Shown piece after piece: positions 3,501 through 28,196 of a stretch of 40,497 nt of DNA (position 1 is its first letter; every line of letters begins with the position of its first letter). The notes beneath the pieces are model-generated. The model had not been told where the DNA came from, did no database searches, and saw only the letters and a list, made by a program, of their open reading frames with translations. Position numbers and translations under genes: made by a program. Source of the stretch: a virus. The stretch spans positions 1 through 40,497 of IMG/VR virus record IMGVR_UViG_3300008117_000631; one strand, 5' to 3'.

Positions 3501-4697
3501 ATGGAAGAAGAAAATAAACTAAGTCATTGCAGTTTTTGTGGAACAAACAAAGAGTTTGTTAAGAAACTAATAGTAGGTGATGGGATAGCTATATGTAGCG
3601 ATTGCGTAGAATTATGCAATGAGCTAATAGCAGATGATTCCAAAATTGAAAGTTCCGAACCATCACCTAACTATGATCCTGAATCTATAAAAAATTATTT
3701 AGATTCGCATGTCATCGGTCAAGAGCAAGCCAAAATAGTTCTTAGTGTTGCAATAAGTAACCACTATAAACGTATTACTCATCCACCAAAAGATTTGGAA
3801 ATTCAAAAAGGTAATGTGCTTATTGTAGGTCCTACTGGTTCAGGTAAAACATTGCTCGCCAAAACAGTAGCAAAATATCTTAAGGTGCCTTTCATTGTTG
3901 CTGATGCTACAAGCTTGACAGAAGCAGGATATGTAGGTGATGACGTAGAGAGCATGATTAACATGCTATTAAACGCTGCTGGAGGGGATGTGAAACAAGC
4001 AGAGCGTGGAATAATATTTATTGATGAGATAGATAAAATTGCACGTAAGGGAGAAAGCACTAGTATAACCCGTGACGTAAGTGGAGAAGGCGTTCAGCAA
4101 GCACTACTCAAATTAGTTGAAGGTACCGTTTGTAGAGTTTCAGGCCAAGGTGGACGAAAGCATCCGGGTTCTGATATGCTAGAAATTAATACAAAGAACA
4201 TTCTGTTTATTGCTGGTGGTGCATTTGTAGGTCTCAAAGATGTAATCACAAACAGAGTAAATGGGACAAGTATAGGATTTAGTGCTAACATCAAAGACAA
4301 TAAAATTGAGGGAGAATTGTCAGACGTTACTCCGGATGACTTAACCAAATATGGAATGATTCCTGAATTTATAGGTAGATTTACTACTACAGTTAGCATA
4401 GCAGAATTAACCAAGGATCAATTAGTTCAGGTACTTACTGACGTAAAAAATAACTATATTTCACAGTACAAATATCTGTTAGGATTAGATGATGTTGAAT
4501 TGACCTTTGGTAATGATGCACTTGAACAGATAGCCGAAAATACAGTATCACTCAAAACCGGAGCTAGGGGTTTGCACACTGAAATTGAAAGAGTTTTGAT
4601 GCCACATATGTATAATGTAGGTAAATACAAGGAAAACAAAATCAAAACGCTAAATATTAATAGGGACAAAGTTCTCAATCCTAAATCAATTTTATGA
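3501..4697 (+). CDS. clpX: ATP-dependent Clp protease ATP-binding subunit ClpX
   Basis: A full-length ClpX (398 aa), the AAA+ unfoldase that feeds substrates to ClpP. Visible parts are the N-terminal zinc-binding domain (Cys10, Cys13, Cys32, Cys35), Walker A GPTGSGKT (110-117), pore loop GYVG (143-146), Walker B IIFIDE (171-176), the RKH loop (219-221), the IGF tripeptide that docks on ClpP (258-260) and sensor 2 GAR (354-356). All key elements are present, so an active unfoldase able to bind host or phage ClpP is expected. Its stop overlaps the start of the bS21 gene (ATGA). A TATAAT lies at 3472-3477, but its -35 is poor. It could redirect host proteolysis during infection. Confidence 0.97.
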   Translation: MEEENKLSHCSFCGTNKEFVKKLIVGDGIAICSDCVELCNELIADDSKIESSEPSPNYDPESIKNYLDSHVIGQEQAKIVLSVAISNHYKRITHPPKDLEIQKGNVLIVGPTGSGKTLLAKTVAKYLKVPFIVADATSLTEAGYVGDDVESMINMLLNAAGGDVKQAERGIIFIDEIDKIARKGESTSITRDVSGEGVQQALLKLVEGTVCRVSGQGGRKHPGSDMLEINTKNILFIAGGAFVGLKDVITNRVNGTSIGFSANIKDNKIEGELSDVTPDDLTKYGMIPEFIGRFTTTVSIAELTKDQLVQVLTDVKNNYISQYKYLLGLDDVELTFGNDALEQIAENTVSLKTGARGLHTEIERVLMPHMYNVGKYKENKIKTLNINRDKVLNPKSIL

Positions 4698-4909
4698 GTG
4701 GAAAAAAGGTTATCGTACATGACGGCAACGTAGAGAAAGCGTTGCGTAAGTTTAAGAAAAAAGTGCAGGATTCTGGTATCTTGCAGGAAGTTCGCCAACG
4801 TCAAGAATACGTTAAACCCACCATCAAACGCAAAATTGCAAAGAATCTAGCTAAAAGACGTTGGAAGAAGCTTTTAGCGGATCAGCAATTACCCAAAAAA
4901 CTTTTCTGA
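4694..4909 (+). CDS. rpsU: Ribosomal protein bS21
   Basis: A 71-aa basic protein with the bS21 signature: KVIVHDGNVEKALRKFKKKV, then a helix rich in Arg and Lys with KPT and RRWKKLL, the usual length for the family. In bacteria bS21 binds the 30S platform near the anti-Shine-Dalgarno and is a late-joining, exchangeable subunit. Phage copies are known from other phages and are thought to replace the host protein on ribosomes. The gene overlaps clpX by 4 nt (ATGA), implying translational coupling. A weak A/T hairpin follows at about 4922-4940. Confidence 0.95.
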   Translation: MSGKKVIVHDGNVEKALRKFKKKVQDSGILQEVRQRQEYVKPTIKRKIAKNLAKRRWKKLLADQQLPKKLF

Positions 4910-4944
4910 CCTAAATAATTTACTTTTTTTCGCAAAAAGTATAT

Positions 4945-4952
4945 ACTAAATA
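4945..4952 (+). promoter_or_regulatory. Late promoter octamer ACTAAATA upstream of hsp20
   Basis: ACTAAATA followed by CTAA, close to the T4 late consensus. The expected start, about 6 nt further on, falls at the first base of the hairpin that opens the hsp20 leader, giving a leader of roughly 60 nt. Confidence 0.55.
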
Positions 4953-4957
4953 CTAAT

Positions 4958-5011
4958 ACAGATGCCGACATCGGGTCTGTATAAAAAGTCATACTTGCTT
5001 ATTGAAAGGAG
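4958..5011 (+). promoter_or_regulatory. Candidate ROSE-like RNA thermometer in the hsp20 leader
   Basis: Two hairpins can form. The first pairs ACAGAT (4958-4963) with GTCTGT (4975-4980) and CC (4965-4966) with GG (4973-4974). The second pairs CUUGCUU (4994-5000) with AAGGAG (5006-5011), the Shine-Dalgarno itself, across the loop AUUGA. Pairing is C-G, U-A, U-G, then a bulged G, then C-G, U-A, U-A. ROSE elements control bacterial small heat-shock genes through a conserved U(U/C)GCU that pairs imperfectly with the Shine-Dalgarno around a bulged G, and this site has that feature. The gene downstream is a small heat-shock protein, as expected. The fold was deduced by hand, without an energy calculation. 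Confidence 0.6.
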
Positions 5012-5017
5012 ATAAAA

Positions 5018-5464
5018 ATGACTAATTCAACTTTAACCCTACGTTCCTACGATTTTCCATCTATACACAAATTAGGTGTTGGTTTTGACACTATGTTAGA
5101 AGATTTGATTCGTCTTACATCAGCACAGCAAACTAATTACCCTCCGTATAACCTAATCAAAACTGAGGATAATCAATTTAGTATTGAGATTGCAGTCGCT
5201 GGTTTTAAAGAAGGCGAAATTGAAGTTTCAATGGAAAAAAATATGTTAACTGTAAAGGGATCTAAAAAAGACGGTATTCCTGAAAACTTTGAATACTTAC
5301 ATCGTGGCATTAGCCTACGTAACTTTGAGCGTACTTTTCCCTTAGCAGAACATATTGAAGTGCAAGGAGCTCTTGTGCGTGATGGTATGCTTATAATAGA
5401 CCTTGTGCGACAAATTCCCGAAGAATATAAACCCAAGTCTATTGCTATATCATACGTAAAGTGA
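5018..5464 (+). CDS. Small heat-shock protein Hsp20 (IbpA-like)
   Basis: A 148-aa alpha-crystallin-domain chaperone. The N-terminal arm resembles IbpA (LRSYDFPSIHKLGVGFDTML). The core spans about residues 40-135 (IKTEDNQFSIEIAVAGFKEGEIEVSM, split here only by strand turns), with the conserved HRGISLRNFERTFPL segment and the GALVRDGMLIIDL strand. The C-terminus has the I-x-I motif (SIAI) used for oligomer assembly. Such proteins hold unfolding clients for refolding or degradation. A strong AAGGAG lies 6 nt before the ATG, and the leader can mask it (see the thermometer entry). Its neighbours clpX, rpsU and clpS suggest one proteostasis module. Confidence 0.95.
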   Translation: MTNSTLTLRSYDFPSIHKLGVGFDTMLEDLIRLTSAQQTNYPPYNLIKTEDNQFSIEIAVAGFKEGEIEVSMEKNMLTVKGSKKDGIPENFEYLHRGISLRNFERTFPLAEHIEVQGALVRDGMLIIDLVRQIPEEYKPKSIAISYVK

Positions 5465-5467
5465 TAT

Positions 5468-5475
5468 TATAAATA
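5468..5475 (+). promoter_or_regulatory. Perfect T4 late promoter octamer TATAAATA upstream of clpS
   Basis: An exact match to TATAAATA, followed by C. Initiation about 6 nt downstream would place the 5' end inside the GTGTGCGG/CCGCACAC hairpin, so clpS mRNA might begin with a short stable stem. Confidence 0.65.
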
Positions 5476-5478
5476 CAA

Positions 5479-5505
5479 GTGTGCGGAATAACCCGCACAC
5501 TTTTA
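5479..5505 (+). terminator. Rho-independent terminator after hsp20, or 5' hairpin of clpS mRNA
   Basis: Stem GTGTGCGG (5479-5486) with CCGCACAC (5493-5500), a 6-nt loop, then TTTTAA. The stem is strong and G+C-rich in an A+T-rich genome. The U run is short and the clpS late promoter sits just before it, so it may serve both to end hsp20 transcripts and to protect clpS transcripts. Confidence 0.6.
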
Positions 5506-5520
5506 AGTCAAAGGTAAAAG

Positions 5521-5826
5521 ATGGCTAACTCAGATACAAAACTAAAAATAAAACCAAACTTCAAAATTCCTGAACCTCCTATGTTCAAAATCATTTATCT
5601 AAATGATGATCATACAAGCATGGATTTTGTAATTAGTAGTCTTATTGAGCATTTTCATTATAACGCTGACACCGCAGTTAATATTACACAAAATATTCAT
5701 GAGGAAGGATCAGCTACAGTAGCAGTCTTGCCATACGAAATTGCTGAACAGAAGGGAATTGAAGTTACTGTTGAGGCAAGAAGTCAGGGATATCCATTAC
5801 AGATTAAAATTGAGGCCGAAGGTTAA
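5521..5826 (+). CDS. clpS: ClpS, N-degron adaptor protein
   Basis: A 101-aa protein matching ClpS in length and motifs: the NDD motif (28-30) and Met34 of the N-degron pocket, the helix FVISSLIEHF, then His60-EEG and the C-terminal strands. In bacteria ClpS delivers proteins with Phe, Leu, Trp or Tyr N-termini to ClpA-ClpP and blocks other ClpA substrates. No clpA is seen here, only clpX, so the adaptor may act on the host ClpA complex. It overlaps by 4 nt, tail to tail, with the minus-strand gene that follows. Confidence 0.93.
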   Translation: MANSDTKLKIKPNFKIPEPPMFKIIYLNDDHTSMDFVISSLIEHFHYNADTAVNITQNIHEEGSATVAVLPYEIAEQKGIEVTVEARSQGYPLQIKIEAEG

Positions 5827-6512
5827 AGAGTAATTCTTTTAGCCCAATAGTTTTCTTCTTGTCTTTTTGGATTAGATACATAGGTTATTCCATCAATTAA
5901 TGTATCAACCATTTTATTGTAAGTACCAAATACCCAGTACTTAACTTTCTTTTCAGTATCAGATTTTAACGCAATGGACGGGCTTATATCATCTATAAAC
6001 CCGTCCATTTCATGAAAATAAAGTTTTTTATCTGGTACGCTATTACTAACTACGATTATCTGTTTTACATCTACGTGAATCTGAAGTCTTTTTATAGTGT
6101 TGTGAAGGTAAACAAGATCATCCCTACGCATACTTTCAATTGCAAAATTATCTGCTAAGGTATATTCATGATGATTTCCATACCAACCATTTATACCAAC
6201 AATAGCAACACCATTAAAAATTATAATATTATTGTGTAGATATACGGTGTTATTAATACTTTTACAAATTTTATGAAGTTCTGATACTGTTTCAGTGTAA
6301 AGCTCCAAATCACTATTTTCCAATGAACCATCAATGTAAAAAACACCTTGATAGAACATTGACAAATATGTTAGGGTTTTTTGTACTACTCTAAGGTCAT
6401 GCGAAATGTTTCCTGCCACAATACAAAACAGGCTAGTAACTTTATCTTCCCATATAAATTTGTCATCTTCAGACAAATTTAGGTCACTTATAATGTCGAA
6501 ACTAATATCCAT
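5823..6512 (-). CDS. Catalytically degenerate metallophosphoesterase-like protein
   Basis: This 229-aa protein has the order of calcineurin-like phosphoesterase motifs but has lost nearly all the metal ligands. D-x-H is Asp10-Leu-Asn12, the GD motif is AGN (Asn35), GNH is GSL (62-64), the later SH is Ser156-Asn157, and GHxH is GTYN (196-199). The final SNP segment is still recognisable next to CNPRG in the active homologue at 11046-11942. It is therefore probably a pseudoenzyme kept for binding or regulation, or a decaying copy. The reading frame is intact, which argues against simple decay. It is transcribed toward clpS and lies downstream of a hairpin at 6521-6550. Confidence 0.75.
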   Translation of the reverse strand: MDISFDIISDLNLSEDDKFIWEDKVTSLFCIVAGNISHDLRVVQKTLTYLSMFYQGVFYIDGSLENSDLELYTETVSELHKICKSINNTVYLHNNIIIFNGVAIVGINGWYGNHHEYTLADNFAIESMRRDDLVYLHNTIKRLQIHVDVKQIIVVSNSVPDKKLYFHEMDGFIDDISPSIALKSDTEKKVKYWVFGTYNKMVDTLIDGITYVSNPKRQEENYWAKRITL

Positions 6513-6520
6513 AAGTTATA

Positions 6521-6550
6521 AAATTAAAGGGGAGCATTTCCCCTTTAATT
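6521..6550 (-). terminator. Strong rho-independent terminator after the EF-hand gene
   Basis: A 12-bp perfect inverted repeat, AATTAAAGGGGA (6522-6533) and TCCCCTTTAATT (6539-6550), with a 5-nt loop. On the minus strand it is followed by a T-rich stretch. It overlaps the stop codon of the EF-hand gene and separates that gene from the phosphoesterase-like gene. Confidence 0.8.
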
Positions 6551-6887
6551 ATTCTGCTTTTTTCTTCTTTGGTTTTTTTACTTTTTCAGCCACTTCAGCT
6601 ACTACTTTCTTAGCTTTAGTTTTGGTCTTTTTGACTACTTCTTTAACATCCTCAACATCAACTTTTCCATCTTTGTTAACGTCTAACACATTAGAAATTG
6701 TAGGCTGAATTGGTGTACTTTCATGACCGATACCATCTGGTTTTGTTGTCATTTGAGGTTCAACTTTATACGGTGCCTGTGTAGGGGCATCTAACGGGTG
6801 AGATCCATCTGCATTAGTTTGTTCCATCTTTTTATATACATAATATAAGATACCCGCAGCAACAATAATTAAAACAAGAATTTCCAT
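6549..6887 (-). CDS. Membrane-anchored protein with EF-hand/dockerin-like calcium site
   Basis: A 112-aa protein with an N-terminal membrane segment (residues 2-18), a polar linker rich in Pro and Thr, one EF-hand loop (Asp69, Asn71, Asp73, Lys75, Asp77, Asp80, as in dockerin repeats) and a lysine- and alanine-rich tail. A GGAG-type ribosome-binding site precedes the ATG. The single loop suggests calcium binding, perhaps with dimerisation. The very basic tail could bind nucleic acid, lipid headgroups or acidic proteins. Function unknown. Confidence 0.8.
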   Translation of the reverse strand: MEILVLIIVAAGILYYVYKKMEQTNADGSHPLDAPTQAPYKVEPQMTTKPDGIGHESTPIQPTISNVLDVNKDGKVDVEDVKEVVKKTKTKAKKVVAEVAEKVKKPKKKKAE

Positions 6888-6942
6888 ATTTTTTCTCCTT
6901 TGTAAAGTATTTATTGATAAGATGTTAAGGTATAACTTTTAC

Positions 6943-6950
6943 GCTAAATA
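6943..6950 (+). promoter_or_regulatory. Late promoter octamer GCTAAATA
   Basis: GCTAAATA ends 6 nt before the ATG at 6957, with no Shine-Dalgarno between, so the transcript is predicted to be leaderless or nearly so. The same octamer variant precedes the long fibre gene at 31349. Confidence 0.6.
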
Positions 6951-6956
6951 TACTTT

Positions 6957-8504
6957 ATGAGAGACATTTTAAATACTTTAGACATTATTACCGAAAGCAC
7001 AGGGTTGGCCAACAGAAAACCCGGTGACATTTTTAAGAATTCTACAGGCGATCAAATGACATTTGTGGGTCTGGCCTTTACCCCTGAAGAAGGTGGGAAA
7101 TTAGAACCCGATCAGTTACGTGATGCTGTTGCAATGGCAACCAACGAGGCAGGAGATATACAATGGCAAAACGGTGCAGCAAGAGCAGGTGGATTTGCTA
7201 TCGCAAGTTTTGATACTGAAACTGGCCCATTGCATTTTGGGTTCTTCTTACAAGAAGTAAAACCAAATCCAAAAGATAACAAGATAAAAAATGTAATTGG
7301 TGATTACAAATATGCTGGAGCTGCTGCAGCAAAAACTCAAGCAAAAATGACTCCACAAGATTTGTTAACAAACAAAACTAATCTCACAACTAAAGATATA
7401 ATGCTACAGTTAAGCCAAAGTTTAGGTATTGATAGTCCATTATATTATATTGCCCATCAAGTTGCAATGAATGCCCCTTTTCCAATTGAAGTAGAGGTTG
7501 CAGGTGATTTAAGTTTTACAGGATTTAGAGATTATTTTTGTGAAATACTACAACCAATAGCATTGCAAAATGGTAATTACAGAGGTAATGCCAGTGAGGC
7601 GGCACAGACATTTTTTGGAGAACCTAGTTTTGCAAACACTACAATAAGTTTTGATAGTAGCAAGAACGCAGGATTAAGTGACAGTATGCTAGAGTTACCA
7701 GACGGACGATATGTTAAAGTAAGTAGCAAAGGTGAAAAGGGTGCAGAGGCCAGTGTTAAAAATCTATTAGATGAAGTGGATAATGTTCAAAATCCAGAAC
7801 TACTAGAAAAATATAGTGATGTATTAGATTTAATTGATACAATGAGGACGAATGGACAAGCAGGAGCACCATTAGTATTAGGTATAAAATATGGTATAAT
7901 AGATGAACAAGATGCAGAATTTATAAAGGCACTAAAAAAGGTTAAACCGTTGCCACTAGAATCTATAAATCACATGACTGTAAGTGGAATGAATCCTTCT
8001 AACAATGTAATAAATTTGGCAATGGGTAGAAAAACTAAAAAGCCAGAATCAACTGTTTTATACTATCATTTAATAGCAGCAGTAGCACATAAGGTAGCAG
8101 AAAAAATAAACACAGATACTAACTTCAGTCAAGCAGCAAGCGAAATACTTAACAATGGTGCTTTAGTACAAGTATACACTAACGCAAAACAATCAGGTAA
8201 CAAATGGATACTTGAGGCATTTAAGACCGTATACCCAAGTAAAGCAGTTACCGGTGTTTTATTAAGTGCAGGCAAAAATTATAGCAGCACAGAAATAAAA
8301 GGTAATTTTACTTTTAAAATATTACGTAATGGTGCAAAGCCAAATGCGGAACCAACTGAAACAGATCAGGCTACCGATTCAGCAGTAGATACTGATTTAT
8401 CTAAGGACGCGGAAAATATAGTAAATCCAAATACTTCTATTTTAGCCAGAAAAAAACGTGAGCCTGAAAACTTAGATTTAGGCAGAGGAAAACGGAAAAA
8501 ATAA
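6957..8504 (+). CDS. 515-aa putative packaged protein with capsid-targeting-like leader
   Basis: Unrecognised in its core. The N-terminus MRDILNTLDIITE followed by Ser14 fits a T4-type capsid-targeting leader, with predicted cleavage after Glu13 (I-T-E, then S). A conserved-looking strand-loop, GRYVKVSSKGEKGAEAS, near residues 250-270 is reminiscent of the S-x-K core of some restriction-endonuclease folds, but this is weak. The C-terminal 50 residues are acidic and then basic and probably disordered. It sits alone behind a late promoter between the EF-hand gene and the broken clpP. If the leader is real, the protein would be inside the head and enter the cell with the DNA. Confidence 0.85.
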   Translation: MRDILNTLDIITESTGLANRKPGDIFKNSTGDQMTFVGLAFTPEEGGKLEPDQLRDAVAMATNEAGDIQWQNGAARAGGFAIASFDTETGPLHFGFFLQEVKPNPKDNKIKNVIGDYKYAGAAAAKTQAKMTPQDLLTNKTNLTTKDIMLQLSQSLGIDSPLYYIAHQVAMNAPFPIEVEVAGDLSFTGFRDYFCEILQPIALQNGNYRGNASEAAQTFFGEPSFANTTISFDSSKNAGLSDSMLELPDGRYVKVSSKGEKGAEASVKNLLDEVDNVQNPELLEKYSDVLDLIDTMRTNGQAGAPLVLGIKYGIIDEQDAEFIKALKKVKPLPLESINHMTVSGMNPSNNVINLAMGRKTKKPESTVLYYHLIAAVAHKVAEKINTDTNFSQAASEILNNGALVQVYTNAKQSGNKWILEAFKTVYPSKAVTGVLLSAGKNYSSTEIKGNFTFKILRNGAKPNAEPTETDQATDSAVDTDLSKDAENIVNPNTSILARKKREPENLDLGRGKRKK

Positions 8505-8507
8505 TTC

Positions 8508-8536
8508 TTTATAGTTTTTACTTTATATGTTATAAT
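8508..8536 (+). promoter_or_regulatory. Possible sigma70-like promoter for clpP
   Basis: TTTATA (8508-8513), a 17-nt spacer and a perfect TATAAT (8531-8536). The -35 is imperfect. It is followed by a leader with GAGGA ahead of the ATG at 8565. Confidence 0.4.
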
Positions 8537-8564
8537 AACATACATTTAACTATAGAGGAACAAA

Positions 8565-9090
8565 ATGGCTTTAGTACCAATCGTTATTGAACACACAAGT
8601 AAAGGCGAACGTAGTTACGATATCTACAGTCGCCTACTCCGTGACCGTGTAATTTTACTTGAAGGTGAAGTTCATGACCACATGGCTAATCTTGTTGTAG
8701 CACAACTATTGTTTTTAGAAAGTGAAGACGATACCAAAGATATTTCATTGTATATCAATAGTCCTGGCGGTAGTGTAACTGCTGGTATGGCAATCTATGA
8801 TGCAATGCAATTTGTAAGATGTGATATATCTACAATCGTTATGGGACAAGCTTGTAGCATGGGTAGTTTACTTACCGTCAGGTGGCGCACGTGGTCAAGC
8901 AACTGATATGCTCATTCAAGTTAATGAAATACTTGAAATGAAACGAAACTTAACAAACATTTATGTAAAGCATAATAGTGTAGGTAAAACATTTGAAGAA
9001 CTAGCAGAAGATATGGAACGTGACAACTACATGAGCGCGGATCAATCTGTAGCATATGGACTAGCTGACAAAGTGATAACAAAAAGATAA
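8565..9090 (+). pseudogene. clpP: ClpP protease, disrupted by an internal deletion with frameshift
   Basis: The first frame encodes normal ClpP from the start through catalytic Ser98 in [10 protein letters not shown] (to about 8873). The second frame resumes at 8875 with [11 protein letters not shown] and runs to the normal end, including the YGLADKV segment that holds the catalytic Asp. Compared with E. coli ClpP about 20 residues are missing, including the MIHQP segment with the catalytic His, and one base stands where about 60 are expected. The net change is about -59 nt and shifts the frame; frame one stops at about 8906. The protein as read cannot be an active protease. Either this is a real loss-of-function or an assembly gap. 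Confidence 0.9.
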
Positions 9091-9093
9091 TAG

Positions 9094-9122
9094 TTGACAA
9101 TAAATCCATTTGGGCATATAAT
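9094..9122 (+). promoter_or_regulatory. Sigma70 promoter with conserved spacer, copy 1
   Basis: TTGACA (9094-9099) and TATAAT (9117-9122) with a 17-nt spacer that starts ATAAATCCATTTGG. This spacer recurs nearly unchanged in other promoters of the window. TATAAT is followed by 6 nt and then the ATG at 9129, so the mRNA should be leaderless. Confidence 0.85.
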
Positions 9123-9128
9123 ACGAGT

Positions 9129-9359
9129 ATGAAAAAAGAACTTGTATTTTATCTCAAATGGCTTGCAACTGTGATAACAATTGCAGGGGCGATATGCACT
9201 AGTGTTAATCTCTATCCCTTAGGTCCAGCACTACTGAATCTAGGGGCTTTTGTTTGGTTGATTGTCTCAATAATGTGGCGTGAATGGAGTCTTATTGTCA
9301 TAAATGCAACATTGTTGCTAATTTATACAGTTGGACTTGTTATCAAATTGTTAACATAA
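9129..9359 (+). CDS. Small multi-pass membrane protein, 76 aa
   Basis: Two to three hydrophobic segments (about residues 8-27, 31-48 and 55-75), with charged or polar turns (WREW near 50). No ribosome-binding site is visible, and the ATG falls at the expected transcription start of a strong promoter. Function not recognised. It belongs to the run of small early-type genes that fills 9.1-11 kb. Confidence 0.75.
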   Translation: MKKELVFYLKWLATVITIAGAICTSVNLYPLGPALLNLGAFVWLIVSIMWREWSLIVINATLLLIYTVGLVIKLLT

Positions 9360-9365
9360 AAATGG

Positions 9366-9394
9366 TTGACAATAAATCCATTTGGGCATATAAT
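9366..9394 (+). promoter_or_regulatory. Sigma70 promoter with conserved spacer, copy 2
   Basis: Identical over all 29 bases to copy 1 at 9094-9122: TTGACA (9366-9371), the same 17-nt spacer, TATAAT (9389-9394). Here a leader of about 24 nt with AAGGAG precedes the ATG at 9425. Confidence 0.85.
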
Positions 9395-9424
9395 AACGGT
9401 ATAGTCAATAACAAGGAGCAAGAA

Positions 9425-9649
9425 ATGAACGAACTACTTATCAACGACAAACCCTACTACGGTATGTTTACTGACAACGGCAATGCTGTAATTGACGGTG
9501 TTGTGTTTTGTGCTAAGAAAATGAATTGGTCATGGAATCTAGTAAATGATATGCTGACCCAAATCTCTACTGTAGATGGTTTTGGTGAGGCTACTGATAC
9601 TGCGGTTCGTGAATATGTGTACGAAGCAATTTTTTCTGAGGGAGAATAA
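9425..9649 (+). CDS. Small acidic protein, 74 aa, unknown
   Basis: The ATG at 9425 is chosen because AAGGAG lies 10 nt upstream and the promoter ends at 9394; a longer upstream frame exists but crosses the promoter. The protein starts MNELLINDKPYYG and ends in an acidic SEGE tail. No motif recognised. It is followed after one base by the next ATG, so the two are translated together. Confidence 0.7.
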   Translation: MNELLINDKPYYGMFTDNGNAVIDGVVFCAKKMNWSWNLVNDMLTQISTVDGFGEATDTAVREYVYEAIFSEGE

Positions 9650-9650
9650 T

Positions 9651-9887
9651 ATGTCTTTCGCATTCAAATCCAATACTAAATTTCGTATTGTCAGTGGTAA
9701 TGTAAGTTTTTACGCTACTGCAAAACAAATCCGCGAAGGTGTCGGTGGCTTTATTAGTTTCAATCTTGCAGCAATGGAGGCATTGCAAGCTTTTGAAAAC
9801 TATCGCACGGGTGATGGTGTTGAAAGTTGCAGCACAGGTCTTGGTGGTACTTGGAACGGCGTACAAATCCAATTGGATGTATTGTAA
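9651..9887 (+). CDS. Small protein, 78 aa, unknown
   Basis: The ATG at 9651 follows GGGAG. The protein starts MSFAFKSNTKFRIVSGNVSF and looks like a compact alpha/beta domain with a glycine-rich C-terminus (GLGGTWNGVQIQLDVL). No family recognised. Third cistron after promoter copy 2. Confidence 0.65.
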   Translation: MSFAFKSNTKFRIVSGNVSFYATAKQIREGVGGFISFNLAAMEALQAFENYRTGDGVESCSTGLGGTWNGVQIQLDVL

Positions 9888-9897
9888 GGAGATGATG

Positions 9898-10104
9898 ATG
9901 AAAGATTTGGCTAGTGCATTTTTTATGATTGTCGGTATTGTTGTTGTACTTGGATTGCTTTTTAGTTATCCAGTCATGCTACTTTGGAATGGTTGTTTTG
10001 TTCCTGCAGTAGAAGGCGTAAAAGAAATTGGATGGCTACAAGCTTGGGGTCTTATGATTCTTTTCGGCATTTTGTTCAAATCCTCTGTCACCACTAAAAA
10101 ATGA
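9898..10104 (+). CDS. Small two-pass membrane protein, 68 aa
   Basis: Three ATG codons occur in a row (9892, 9895, 9898). The last is preferred because AAGGAG (9886-9891) is then 6 nt away. There are two membrane segments (about residues 7-30 and 47-62). The stop overlaps the next ATG (AATGA). Function unknown. Confidence 0.65.
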   Translation: MKDLASAFFMIVGIVVVLGLLFSYPVMLLWNGCFVPAVEGVKEIGWLQAWGLMILFGILFKSSVTTKK

Positions 10105-10493
10105 TACAAGTTCCTACAAAGGATAGTAAAGTTAAGGTCACTGTACGTTTTGTACAGGGACCTAATATGATTCCCCCTCAGCCCGATCACAGGGTATTTG
10201 AGGGTACTGTCGTTCCTAACTACAAATGGTTAAATGATCGTCAGTTTTGTATTACAGGTGATGAGTTTATGAAAGTCCGTGTTATTAGTATGGACTTAGT
10301 AAATGATATTGAACTACTAAGTGGTACAATGAAAGATGTTGACACGGATGTAAAAGTATTTGAGGTCGCAGGTAGTAAAGGTAACAAATACATTGTCACA
10401 AAAAATAGTAAAGGTTGGGATTGTACTTGCCCTGGCTTTCAATTTCGTAAAGCTTGTAAACATGTTTCAGAGTTGAGCGGTAATGAACAGTAA
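10101..10493 (+). CDS. SWIM zinc-finger protein
   Basis: A 130-aa protein with a C-terminal SWIM motif, Cys108-x-Cys110 ... Cys119-x-His121 (DCTCPGFQFRKACKHV). SWIM fingers bind DNA or proteins. The N-terminal 90 residues form an unassigned beta-rich domain. It overlaps both neighbours, by 4 nt upstream and 11 nt downstream, so it belongs to one polycistron. Confidence 0.8.
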   Translation: MIQVPTKDSKVKVTVRFVQGPNMIPPQPDHRVFEGTVVPNYKWLNDRQFCITGDEFMKVRVISMDLVNDIELLSGTMKDVDTDVKVFEVAGSKGNKYIVTKNSKGWDCTCPGFQFRKACKHVSELSGNEQ

Positions 10494-21290: not shown

Positions 21291-22409
21291 ATGGACCGTG
21301 ACTTTTTCAGAAAATATCTAGACATCTTAAGTGAGTCTAGCCCTCCTCAAGTTTTAGCAGAATCCATCGAATTACACGACAGTTTTGACATTGAACTCAA
21401 TGAAAACTTTGTCATTGAAACCGGTATTATTGGATTTACTAAGGATGGAGTTATTATTGAAGCAGATGAAACATTGTTAGGATTATTAGAAGTAAACGAC
21501 ATTTTGTGCGAGGATGAAACTTACGACCAAGAGGAAGAAGAAGTTGCTGAAGATGAACAAAGTGGAAAACCATATCAACCTATGGATAGATATAAACATC
21601 TAGTAGATAGAGCAAAAGGAGACTGGAAATGGAAGAGGGAAGACGGTTCACCAGCTACTCCAGAAGATTTAGAAACTATAAAAAAAACAAAGCGTGATAT
21701 ACTAAATCAAATGCAAAGTGATGAAGTTAATCCAAACAATACCGACGAAAATGTTTTTACCAAATTTATAAATTTGTTTAAAGAAGATGAGGAAGAGGAA
21801 TATTACAAACCACCAGCTGGTTATAGTGAGCTTGATAACACAATGATGTCCGTAGTAGATACATTGAAGAACACCAGTAGTACTAAAAACAATAAGACAA
21901 ATTACGGAACTGATTGGTCATCTACATCAGTGGCTCGCAATCCTAAAGATCGCAGTGGGTCATATCTACAAACACAATATCAAACCAAAGACGGTAAAGA
22001 CGTGGTAAATAAACAAGATTTTCAACAAAACGTCAGTTCCCCATGGTTAGATTATACTCTAAACAAAGCTAAACAAGATTCAGATACTAAGATGCAGGAG
22101 CCCGACGGACCTGTTAAGTATCAATCTATGCCCCAAGGTCCTATGACTAAATTTAGAGCAAGAACAAATGAAGCAGAATATCAAGGACGCAAAGTTCCAT
22201 TAGGTAAGCCAATGGCAGGTGATGTTGCTAAATCAAAAGTATATGTCAAAAAACCAAATGGTAAAATCGTTAAAGTAAACTTCGGCGACAAGAACATGAA
22301 GATTAAAAAGAGTAATCCAAAACGTAGAAAAAGTTTCCGCGCACGCCATCGCTGCGAGAATCCAGGACCACGTTGGAAAGCAAGATATTGGTCTTGCAGA
22401 GCATGGTAA
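21291..22409 (+). CDS. Putative packaged protein 1 with capsid-targeting-like leader
   Basis: A 372-aa protein. Residues 1-15, MDRDFFRKYLDILSE followed by Ser, match an [I/L]-x-E cleavage site (L-S-E, then S). The middle is acidic and low-complexity (EDEEEEYYKPP) and carries VFTKFINLFK near residue 155. The last 80 residues are basic and cysteine-containing (GRKVPLGKPMAGDV ... RKSFRARHRCENPGP ... WSCRAW), which may bind DNA. CAGGA precedes the ATG. No known enzyme domain. Expected location, if the leader is real, is inside the phage head. Confidence 0.75.
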   Translation: MDRDFFRKYLDILSESSPPQVLAESIELHDSFDIELNENFVIETGIIGFTKDGVIIEADETLLGLLEVNDILCEDETYDQEEEEVAEDEQSGKPYQPMDRYKHLVDRAKGDWKWKREDGSPATPEDLETIKKTKRDILNQMQSDEVNPNNTDENVFTKFINLFKEDEEEEYYKPPAGYSELDNTMMSVVDTLKNTSSTKNNKTNYGTDWSSTSVARNPKDRSGSYLQTQYQTKDGKDVVNKQDFQQNVSSPWLDYTLNKAKQDSDTKMQEPDGPVKYQSMPQGPMTKFRARTNEAEYQGRKVPLGKPMAGDVAKSKVYVKKPNGKIVKVNFGDKNMKIKKSNPKRRKSFRARHRCENPGPRWKARYWSCRAW

Positions 22410-22721
22410 AATAAGGAAAACAAATGTCAGACACAAAATTTTTTAGACAATATTTAGATATATTAAACGAAGGGCCTCCAGCTGGAGTAGGGCCAAGCGC
22501 ACCAGCTGCACCTAAAGCACCACCAGCAAATCAACCTTTAGGAGGATACGATCCTAAATCTGGAAAAGCTCCAACACAACAACAAGCTGATAACCTAATG
22601 GGTCAAATTGACAAAGCAGGTAATCAAATTACTCAAGGTGGAGAAAAAATGGGAGCAGGTAATTATGTTAGTGGTGCAATGGATGCAGCTAGGGGAGCGA
22701 ATGATCTTCTTAACGCAGCAG

Positions 22722-22821
22722 GAGGCTGGCCGAAAGCACGGCTACCGTTCACGCGTCACGATGCAACTCGCGCAGAAGTTGTACGAGGGCGTAGACATTG
22801 GCGGTGAGCGCACCGGTCTGA
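22722..22821 (+). other. topA: G+C-rich fragment of bacterial DNA topoisomerase I gene
   Basis: 62 of these 100 bases are G or C, against an A+T-rich surrounding. Read in one frame it gives EAGRKHGYRSRV and then TMQLAQKLYEGVDIGGERTGL, which is the topoisomerase I segment that normally continues ITYMRTD. The style of VDIGGE resembles alphaproteobacterial enzymes. The fragment begins and ends abruptly. It accounts for the frameshift in the host gene. Confidence 0.75.
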
Positions 22822-23996: not shown

Positions 23997-25142
23997 ATGA
24001 GGGCACGTGAATTTATACTTGAAGCAGAAAATCAACAGGAACCATCTGCAAGAGAAAGATTTTTGAATAGGGTGATAGGTCCAGAATCTGGCGGTAAATC
24101 CTATATCAAAAATCCATATAGTAGTGCAACTGGATTATTTCAATTTATTAAATCAACTTGGGACAATACAGTAAAAAAAGCTAAACCAGGAGATGCGCAT
24201 TACGGTGTAAGTTTTAAAGATATGCAAACTAATCCAAAAGCTCAAAGGGCAGCTGCAGATCAAATATCACGTGAATATCAAGCTTCTATACAAAGAAACA
24301 AACTTCCAGATACTCCTGGTATGTATTATTTATTACATGGGCATGGACCAAAAGCACTGGAACTCTATAACAGTCCTGATAAGCAATTGAAAGATGTTTA
24401 TTATCCTTACGCTAGAGATAAAAAAGGAGAAATTATATATGATAAAAAAACAGGAAAACCAGTTCCATCTATCGTATATCAACAAAATCCAAATTTTAAA
24501 CCTGAAGAAAAAATTTCTACTTTTATAGCTAAAAGGGCTGCATCAGTTGGTGATAACATGGCTAATATGTATCCTGGCAATGCAAAATTAGCAAGTGTAA
24601 CATCGGATAACAAATCTAAAACTATAAAAACAGATAGGGACGAAACTACACCTCCTCAGGTAGCTACAAAAACAACAGTTGAACCTACTATTATAGATAA
24701 AGCAAAGAAAGCAGTATCAGATATAGCTGGCACTACTGTTGCTACTAAAACTGCAACTGCAACGAATACCACATCACAGGATAAAAAAGTTAAACCTGAA
24801 GTCAAAGTAGATTCACCTGAATATGAAAAAAGGATGTGGGATAAACAAGTTGCTGCAGGAGACAAATTCAGTCGTGAAAGAGAAGCAAGGTTAGAAAAAG
24901 AGCGTATAGCTAGATCAAAAGGATTACCAATAGAACCTCCTATGACAGAACCTGACTTAGATCCAAAGGGTTGGGCAGCGTATGATGACTATATGAATAA
25001 ATTACAAACTGAAAAAGGTGATAAATCTGCCCGTGAACGTGAAGCGAGATTAGAAAAAGAGCGGGCAGCAAAACCAACTGACTCCAGTCAACCATCACAG
25101 GACGATAGCTACTATACCAAATTTATGAATTTGTTCAAATAA
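23997..25142 (+). CDS. Packaged lytic transglycosylase-like protein
   Basis: A 381-aa protein. Leader MRAREFILE then Ala (I-L-E, cut after Glu9). Residues of about 18-125 are a lysozyme-type SLT domain: GPESGGKSY with the catalytic Glu, then SSATGLFQFIKSTW and QRAAADQISREYQ and the MYYLLHGHG helix. A disordered Thr/Lys region follows. Near the end a repeat GDK[FS]xREREARLEKER occurs twice, and the C-terminus YYTKFMNLFK resembles VFTKFINLFK of packaged protein 1. Expected to cut peptidoglycan, either as an injected factor or from the particle. Confidence 0.8.
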   Translation: MRAREFILEAENQQEPSARERFLNRVIGPESGGKSYIKNPYSSATGLFQFIKSTWDNTVKKAKPGDAHYGVSFKDMQTNPKAQRAAADQISREYQASIQRNKLPDTPGMYYLLHGHGPKALELYNSPDKQLKDVYYPYARDKKGEIIYDKKTGKPVPSIVYQQNPNFKPEEKISTFIAKRAASVGDNMANMYPGNAKLASVTSDNKSKTIKTDRDETTPPQVATKTTVEPTIIDKAKKAVSDIAGTTVATKTATATNTTSQDKKVKPEVKVDSPEYEKRMWDKQVAAGDKFSREREARLEKERIARSKGLPIEPPMTEPDLDPKGWAAYDDYMNKLQTEKGDKSAREREARLEKERAAKPTDSSQPSQDDSYYTKFMNLFK

Positions 25143-26383: not shown

Positions 26384-26599
26384 ATGGCTAAAGAAGAAAC
26401 ATTAAAATTAGATGGTAAAGTAGTAGATGTACTACCAAACGCAATGTTCAGAGTTGACCTAGAAACAGGACAAAATGTGATAGGTTATATATCTGGTAAA
26501 ATGCGTCAACATGATATTAAAATACTGTTAGGTGATACAGTTGAAATAGAATTTAGTCTATACGATATGAGCCGCGGCAGAATTACACGCCGACGCTAA
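26384..26599 (+). CDS. infA: Translation initiation factor IF-1
   Basis: 71 aa, the length of bacterial IF-1. The S1/OB-fold matches along its whole length: [57 protein letters not shown], then [14 protein letters not shown]-1 binds the A site of the 30S subunit during initiation. With bS21 at 4694-4909, this phage carries two factors acting at the initiation step. Its own Shine-Dalgarno is poor: AGGAG is about 15 nt away. It sits 10 nt after the preceding stop and just before the superoxide dismutase gene. Confidence 0.95.
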
Positions 26600-26604
26600 A
26601 TCTC

Positions 26605-26612
26605 AATAAATA
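26605..26612 (+). promoter_or_regulatory. Late promoter octamer AATAAATA
   Basis: AATAAATA followed by CTCTA. It ends 7 nt before the ATG of the superoxide dismutase gene with no ribosome-binding site, again suggesting a leaderless late mRNA. Confidence 0.6.
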
Positions 26613-26619
26613 CTCTACA

Positions 26620-27171
26620 ATGTATAAAATTGTAGAGAATCTCTCCGAATCCCGCAAAAAGAAACTTGAGATATTACCACTCAAGTATTCTCCTACCGAT
26701 TTAAGTCCTGTAATAAGTAAAGCAACAATTGACTATCACTACGAAGAATTAGCCAAAGGCTATGCGAAACGTTATAACAATAACGAAGGTGATAGTGAGT
26801 TTAATTATGCAGGGACTTTCTTACATAACATTTACTTTGCACAATTTCAAAAGCCAAAAGAATCTGGTACACCTAACGGTCCTGTACTTAATCTAATAAA
26901 AAGAAGATTTGGTTGGTGGCGTGATTTTAAAGAAAAGTTTAAAGAAGAGGCAATGAAGATCCAAGGTTCAGGTTGGATCTATCTTACATACAATGGTGAG
27001 ATAAGAACAATAGTAAATCATGAGGTTCGTGAAGATATACTTATACTAGTTGACTGGTGGGAACACGCCTGGGCACTAGACTATCAAGCAGATAAAAAAT
27101 CATATTTAGAAAATACATGGAAAATTATGAACTGGAGCCATATTAATACACGATGGGGTAAGAATTTATAA
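26620..27171 (+). CDS. Fe/Mn superoxide dismutase with capsid-targeting-like leader
   Basis: A 183-aa SOD with all four metal ligands: His40 (DYHYEELAKGY), His69 (FLHNIYF), Asp145 and His149 (VDWWEHAWALDYQ). The SOD body starts at about residue 17 (LEILPLKYSP), matching the normal N-terminus of the family. Ahead of it are MYKIVENLSE then SRKKK, an extra leader fitting the L-x-E cleavage pattern. At the second-sphere Gln position there is His134 (VNHE), and Gly65 precedes His69 by four, so metal preference is uncertain. It lies between infA and a glycosyltransferase-like gene. It would remove superoxide, possibly from within the virion or straight after injection. Confidence 0.88.
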   Translation: MYKIVENLSESRKKKLEILPLKYSPTDLSPVISKATIDYHYEELAKGYAKRYNNNEGDSEFNYAGTFLHNIYFAQFQKPKESGTPNGPVLNLIKRRFGWWRDFKEKFKEEAMKIQGSGWIYLTYNGEIRTIVNHEVREDILILVDWWEHAWALDYQADKKSYLENTWKIMNWSHINTRWGKNL

Positions 27172-27172
27172 T

Positions 27173-27889
27173 ATGGATCAAAAGATTTGTGTAGTAACAG
27201 CTACCAGAGAAAAAACAATTGAAGATTTCAAAACAAATACATTGTTAGGAAAATCTTTAAACATAAAAACTTACTTTGATATTGAATTAATCTGTTTTAC
27301 AGACAATTCAAATGGGTTAAGCAAATGTTATAATGAAGCGATAAGACAATCAGAGAACACAGAGAAAATTTTAGTTTTTGTTCATGATGATGTTGCATTA
27401 CTTGATTATTATTGGCCATTGCGAGTAATTGAAGCACTCAACACCTATGACATTGTAGGGGTAGCTGGAAATACAAGACATGAAAATAATTATCCTAGTT
27501 GGGCACATAGTCGTGTGGAAAACGGTAGAATAGTTTGGGATGATGACAAATATCTTTCAGGATCTATGTTACACGATTCTAATTGGCCTCCTAAAATTGT
27601 AAGTATATATGGAGATTTAAACAAAGAAGTAGTTAATTTAGATGGTGTATTTTTAGCAATGTCAACTAATCTTATATCAAAGAAGAATTTGAGTTTTGAT
27701 GAAAGATTTAAATTTCACTTTTATGATGCTGATTTTTGCAAGTCTGCGGTAAATAAAGAATGTAGTTTAGGTACTTTTCCGTTAGCACTACTTCATGCAG
27801 GAAAAGGTGACATGAATGCTCCTGAATATATAGACGCATACAGAGAATTTTATAGGAAATATAATGATGAATTTAATAATAACCGATAG
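27173..27889 (+). CDS. Glycosyltransferase-like protein, 238 aa
   Basis: Rossmann-like start ([19 protein letters not shown]), then [15 protein letters not shown] with a DD motif typical of GT-A folds, a GNTRH loop and [13 protein letters not shown]. Family 2-type transferase is the best guess; donor and acceptor unknown. Could glycosylate the virion or DNA. It overlaps the Fe-S carrier gene by 26 nt. Confidence 0.6.
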
Positions 27890-28196
27890 TGCTAAAGACA
27901 AGCTTAGTACTGTTATCGCAGAGGAAAACGACCCTTCTTTAAAACTACGCATATTTGTTCAGGGCGGTGGCTGCAGCGGAATGCAATATGGCTTTACTTT
28001 TGATACTGAGACTAATGAAGATGACTGGAATATTGATGCAGGACCAGTGAGTGTTTTAGTAGATATGGTATCTGCCCAGTATCTTGAGGGCGCAGAAATT
28101 GATTACGCAGAAGATATCTACGGATCAAGCTTTAAAATCAAAAACCCAAACGCCCAAACCTCCTGCGGATGCGGTTCCAGCTTCAGCCCTTATTGA
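27864..28196 (+). CDS. A-type Fe-S cluster carrier (IscA/ErpA/HesB-like)
   Basis: A 110-aa protein with the three conserved cysteines of A-type carriers: Cys37 ([11 protein letters not shown]) and Cys101, Cys103 (TSCGCGSSF). These proteins hand [2Fe-2S] or [4Fe-4S] clusters to apo-proteins. Start at 27864 or 27867 (Met-Met). In this phage it could serve the radical SAM protein. It sits directly after the glycosyltransferase-like gene and before the tail fibres. Confidence 0.9.

Follow-up and report, generated by a model that had tools for sequence, protein, structure and literature searches.

A superoxide dismutase of jumbo phages carries a conserved leader predicted to target it to the phage head

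Can a tailed phage carry a superoxide dismutase (SOD) in its head and deliver it together with the genome? This question is raised by an open reading frame at 26620..27171 (+ strand) of the window, by which we mean the whole stretch of viral DNA analysed (40,497 nucleotides; IMG/VR record IMGVR_UViG_3300008117_000631). The frame begins with ATG and encodes an Fe/Mn SOD of 183 residues with an N-terminal leader, MYKIVENLSE (residues 1-10; 26620..26649, + strand), with a predicted prohead-protease site separating E10 from S11 (LSE/S, the slash marking the cut). The packaging reading began from this one sequence, and comparison with its relatives argues strongly for it.

The body of the protein is readily recognised. 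It scores 77.9 bits against Pfam Sod_Fe_C (cut-off 20.9) and 28.5 bits against Sod_Fe_N (cut-off 27), and the solved structures it matches are those of Fe, Mn and cambialistic SODs; a PHROG search gave no match. The AlphaFold model (pLDDT 90.8) matches Fe/Mn SODs in Foldseek with a TM of about 0.8-0.87, and its sole disordered part is residues 1-11, the only ones with pLDDT below 50. Alignment with solved SODs places the metal ligands at His40 (26737..26739), His69 (26824..26826), Asp145 (27052..27054) and His149 (27064..27066), all on the + strand and all invariant in 39 phage sequences, in agreement with a preliminary description that had called the four ligands intact. The catalytic Tyr34, Y48 in the window SOD, is invariant in the same number of phage sequences.

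Fold and metal ligands are thus common to the window SOD and cellular SodA/SodB (3ak1, 1wb8, 1isa), whereas the cellular enzymes lack a leader and keep H30 and Y174 (E. coli numbering), and the phage SODs form a separate clade in the tree. H30 and Y174, residues of the usual active-site funnel and second sphere, are replaced across the whole phage SOD family; in the window SOD the positions hold Leu (L44) and Ala, and a His (H134) occupies the outer-sphere position. With these changes the bound metal, Fe or Mn, is not predictable, and the loss of the two funnel residues makes dismutase activity less than certain. The same replacements would fit a packaged protein that is no longer an efficient dismutase and whose fold has been reused for a structural or binding role. 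We consider this very improbable, since the four ligands and Tyr34 are invariant and codon comparison shows purifying selection among close relatives (between the window SOD and L005, 64 synonymous against 32 non-synonymous codon differences).

We then compared the N-termini of phage and cellular enzymes. A scan of IMG/VR with the window protein gave 61 loci, and a scan with an alignment, using search patterns in the SOD body and outside the leader, gave at least 566 relatives, of which 80 were kept; the 141 phage loci represent 107 distinct SOD proteins. For the cellular set we took 26 proteobacterial SODs that begin with ATG; they belong to the class of G013, to which a Polaromonas metagenome-assembled genome (MAG) had led. 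The distance from the initiator Met to the first ligand His is 40 residues in the window SOD and 37-48 across the phage SODs, against 27 residues in 24 of the 26 cellular SODs. Among the matches listed, every one of the 107 distinct phage SODs has [LI]xE placed so that its Glu precedes the first ligand His by 29-32 residues, and none of the 26 cellular SODs has the motif there. The phage leaders in these matches are 7-18 residues long and variable apart from the terminal [L/I]-x-E, with variability reaching 3.2 bits at P2 and 3.6 bits at P4 for the 107 proteins listed; 84 of the 107 proteins, again among the matches listed, have G, A or S at P1'. Because the choice of site dictates the residues at P3 and P1, the informative figure is the 107/107. 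When the leaders of 19 clusters with less than 70% body identity were shuffled, the motif appeared with a mean probability of 0.12, giving a product of ~1e-19 if the 19 clusters are treated as independent. A chance origin of the leader is ruled out by the 107/107 conservation together with this shuffling, and its being a common N-terminal feature of SODs is ruled out by the cellular set. The preliminary description had seen in MYKIVENLSE an added leader of the capsid-targeting type; that feature proves to be family-wide, to end in the T4 prohead-protease motif and to be absent from cellular SODs. It had also named a leader in non-packaged homologues as evidence against packaging, and the 26 cellular SODs carry none. 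A cut after Glu10 is predicted to leave the mature N-terminus within a few residues of that of a cellular SOD.

The motif by itself says less. Across the proteome of a related 230-kb record (G001), [LI]xE shows no clear excess (29 against 21-24 expected), and bare [LI]xE in the cultured Pseudomonas jumbo phage PA5oct shows no enrichment among proteins marked as detected by mass spectrometry (MS; 14/93 against 37/173). With so weak a proteome-wide signal, the case rests on the conservation of the motif. This conservation bears on another explanation, namely that the infected cell makes and uses the SOD as an ordinary auxiliary metabolic enzyme, that the leader is a conserved extension with some other role, and that detection of the SOD in PA5oct reflects carry-over. 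We regard this as fairly unlikely, in part because a long-diverged leader keeps only the L/I and the E, at the spacing of the cleavage rule, in all 107 of the distinct proteins among the matches listed.

The cleavage rule is that of phage T4, whose protease gp21 cuts after L/I-x-E (PMC9026906). Like the window SOD, the T4 proteins cut by gp21 (IPI, IPII, IPIII and Alt) have a short N-terminal leader with [L/I]-x-E before the cut (PMC9026906, PMC7411985). For IPIII the first 10 residues suffice for head targeting, and residues 8 and 10 serve processing (PMC9026906); the window leader also has 10 residues, with Leu8 and Glu10. Foreign proteins fused to T4 leaders enter the heads and, from there, the cells (PMC9026906, PMC7411985). 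The likeness extends to a PF03420 prohead protease in phages related to the window, and to cargo that would be intended for delivery with the DNA. PF03420 was found in PA5oct, in G001 and in 4/4 further related records of at least 300 kb; the search found none in shorter fragments, nor in two 212-236 kb records, and the window, a 40 kb fragment, is without a prohead protease gene. The systems differ in that the cargo here is a recognisable metabolic/antioxidant enzyme whose packaging is predicted, and in the leader sequences themselves. A further parallel is found in the inner-body and ejection proteins of phiKZ and SPN3US, where jumbo phage head propeptides are also cut after a short Glu-containing motif; however, the SPN3US propeptides (gp75, gp53, gp54) are long, 124-130 residues, and follow an AxE rule, and there is no SOD among these phiKZ/SPN3US proteins.

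Neighbouring genes provide a control within the locus. Directly upstream of the SOD gene lies infA (26384..26596, + strand), encoding translation initiation factor IF-1 (NCBIfam TIGR00008, 102 bits, cut-off 61) with an ordinary IF-1 start and no leader; in 57/128 relatives, among the matches listed, an IF-1 gene lies no more than 300 nt upstream of the SOD. Downstream follow a glycosyltransferase-like gene and a gene for an ErpA-type Fe-S cluster insertion protein (27864..28196, + strand; NCBIfam NF010147, 153.9 bits, cut-off 117), the latter found within 1.5 kb downstream of the SOD in 35 of 41 scored relatives. ErpA, too, is without a leader, its N-terminus being of ordinary length. The leader motif is seen in p25984 in only 1/46 relatives and p25357 has no conserved leader, so that ErpA, p25984, p25357 and IF-1 rule out the leader as a trait of every gene in the cassette. 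Conversely, a transglycosylase-like protein (23997..25142, + strand; PHROG transglycosylase, 5.6e-15) has the leader MRAREFILE/A, kept as MRAKEFI.E/[AG] in most relatives, and from this leader it is probably another packaged protein. Two proteins of unknown function also have such leaders: one at 21291..22409 (+ strand), with MDRDFFRKYLDILSE/S and the same leader type in close homologues, and one at 22424..22807 (+ strand), with MSDTKFFRQYLDILNE/G kept in 3 relatives. The protein at about 23151 has a leader in the style of that of the SOD. Thus the leader is gene-specific, being present on these four proteins and absent from ErpA and p25984. The conserved ErpA gene suggests an iron/oxidative-stress cassette in these phages; as an intracellular cassette it would favour the ordinary-enzyme explanation, against which stands the absence of a leader from the neighbouring genes.

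PA5oct, together with MIJ3 and Paride, offers cultured relatives: all three have a SOD of the window clade (38.6% identity; PA5oct was placed in the tree). The leader of the PA5oct and MIJ3 SODs is MNDSIKKYISIAE/A. The PA5oct protein (EST35_0261, QCG76142.1; sodB, MIJ3_00102, in MIJ3) is annotated as a 'hypothetical protein' with the GenBank note 'ESI-MS/MS'. It resembles the window SOD in a leader ending IAE/A and in a late-promoter-like element and differs in its neighbourhood, clpX-rpsU-hsp20-clpS-SOD as against infA-SOD-erpA. The window itself has clpX, hsp20 and a clpS-like gene at 3501-5826, in the same order as PA5oct and MIJ3, where the SOD follows clpS. Elsewhere in the window, two frames share clpP (8565-9090); in the close relatives G079 and G080 this region has 62 nt more (643 against 581), so that the window has either lost nucleotides in a deletion that breaks the frame or contains an error of assembly.

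We compared the 93 MS-marked with the 173 unmarked coding sequences of PA5oct (MK797984), the meaning of the marks resting on the notes in the GenBank record. Leader-type N-termini, defined as [LIVFM]xE[GAS] with the Glu at 6-25, occur in 13/93 marked against 4/173 unmarked proteins (p=0.0004), an excess that needs G, A or S at P1'. The marked set includes soluble enzymes, among them RNR, ThyA (thymidylate synthase), FolE, ligase and ClpP; MS detection alone is therefore no proof of packaging, and the presence of these enzymes lends weight to carry-over of an ordinary SOD. Another MS-marked protein, FtsH, had been annotated as structural in PA5oct, according to the authors of the MIJ3 study (PMC6892783).

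The upstream region of the gene provides a further line of evidence. Directly 5' of the window SOD ATG is AATAAATACTCTACA, which contains ATAAATA (26606..26612, + strand), 7 nt before the ATG and conserved upstream in relatives. This element resembles the late promoter of T4, TATAAATA. Among the matches listed, ATAAATA lies upstream in 54/100 distinct relatives, where 0.12 would be expected, and nearly always 11-14 nt before the SOD ATG. In the 60 nt upstream of PA5oct coding sequences it occurs in 24/93 MS-marked against 7/173 other genes (p=3e-7); the SOD is among the marked genes that bear it, and RNR, ThyA, FolE and ClpP, which are marked and could be contaminants, are without it. Since ATAAATA precedes the SOD and is enriched before MS-marked genes, the SOD gene is probably read together with the virion genes, and an element common to the SOD and virion genes argues against an ordinary enzyme. 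ATAAATA is a candidate late-promoter element for Arenbergviridae. Separately, in about half of the 100 relatives just 4-7 nt lie between its end and the SOD start codon (26605-26620 in the window). If it is a late promoter, such a gap leaves no room for a Shine-Dalgarno site, and the late mRNAs are possibly leaderless, next to a phage IF-1.

One phage of the clade departs from the pattern. Vibrio phage 2.275.O retains a SOD (L065, 7995-8564) without an N-terminal leader, as might be expected of an ordinary enzyme of the infected cell. This protein has a C-terminal tail of ~25 residues with LDE/S; by analogy with T4 Alt and gp21 the tail is possibly a C-terminal propeptide, and a search for a relative with the same tail found none. 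GTDB genomes contributed only two SOD relatives, neither convincing as a cellular SOD with a leader: one is on a 3.9 kb Polaromonas MAG contig that is cut inside the SOD, and the other on a contig from a Methylophilaceae MAG that bears genes resembling those of phages. The freshwater SOD MW462191 was likewise rejected as a leader-type protein; it is without a leader and groups with cellular SODs in the tree. As a side observation, L087, a contig assigned by binning to Methylophilaceae but bearing phage-like genes (ClpS-like, HNH), has at 5088-10174 a SOD fragment followed by sufB, sufC, sufS, a sufE-like gene and glutaredoxin; this may be a Suf system for Fe-S assembly carried by a phage.

We conclude that the SOD is likely to be packaged in the phage head with cleavage of its leader. 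The SOD would be made late in infection and loaded into the assembling head by its N-terminal propeptide, a cleavable one of the kind that targets T4 proteins to the capsid. The prohead protease would cut after Glu10 (LSE/S), leaving a near-cellular mature SOD trapped in the head with the DNA. At infection the enzyme would enter the host with the genome, like the T4 internal proteins, and would remove superoxide early. We infer loading, cleavage, activity, ejection and benefit alike; ejection, and activity ahead of the first phage gene expression, would follow by analogy with T4. All of the packaging evidence applies equally to a processed SOD that works inside the particle, guarding the packed DNA and the proteins of the head against superoxide, whether in sunlit water or in a lysing host, because this evidence is silent on the site of action. 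We nevertheless hold protection within the particle to be unlikely, given that T4 ejects cargo bearing leaders of this kind into its host (PMC9026906) and that there was no sign of a capsid-bound mode. For delivery in full, in which a widespread jumbo phage group would carry an active Fe/Mn SOD as processed head cargo, inject it and have it act before phage gene expression, we put the chances at about even. The preliminary description had pointed to an oxidative burst as the threat; sunlight or host respiration fits as well as the source of the superoxide.

A SOD in a virus particle has precedents. The chlorovirus PBCV-1 packages a Cu/Zn SOD, a245r (PMC7019647), and SOD is also said to be present in the virions of giant viruses (PMC9405923), so the earlier statement that no virion-packaged SOD had been described was too broad; our literature search found no description of one for a tailed phage. 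As the window SOD is predicted to be, a245r is virion-packaged; it is virus-encoded and the product of a late gene, and superoxide is lower in infected cells (PMC7019647). In contrast to the window SOD, it is an unrelated Cu/Zn enzyme of an algal virus, with no leader or prohead-protease processing described (PMC7019647).

The packaging idea is testable now, since the PA5oct/MIJ3/Paride group is in culture; Paride grows on deep-dormant cells (PMC10761892). If the proposal is true, an added leader that ends in [L/I]-x-E and is absent from cellular homologues would be a sequence rule for finding injected enzymes in uncultured jumbo phages. Oxidative stress would then be a barrier at DNA entry that is disarmed by a pre-made phage enzyme, in parallel to what PBCV-1 may do in algae.
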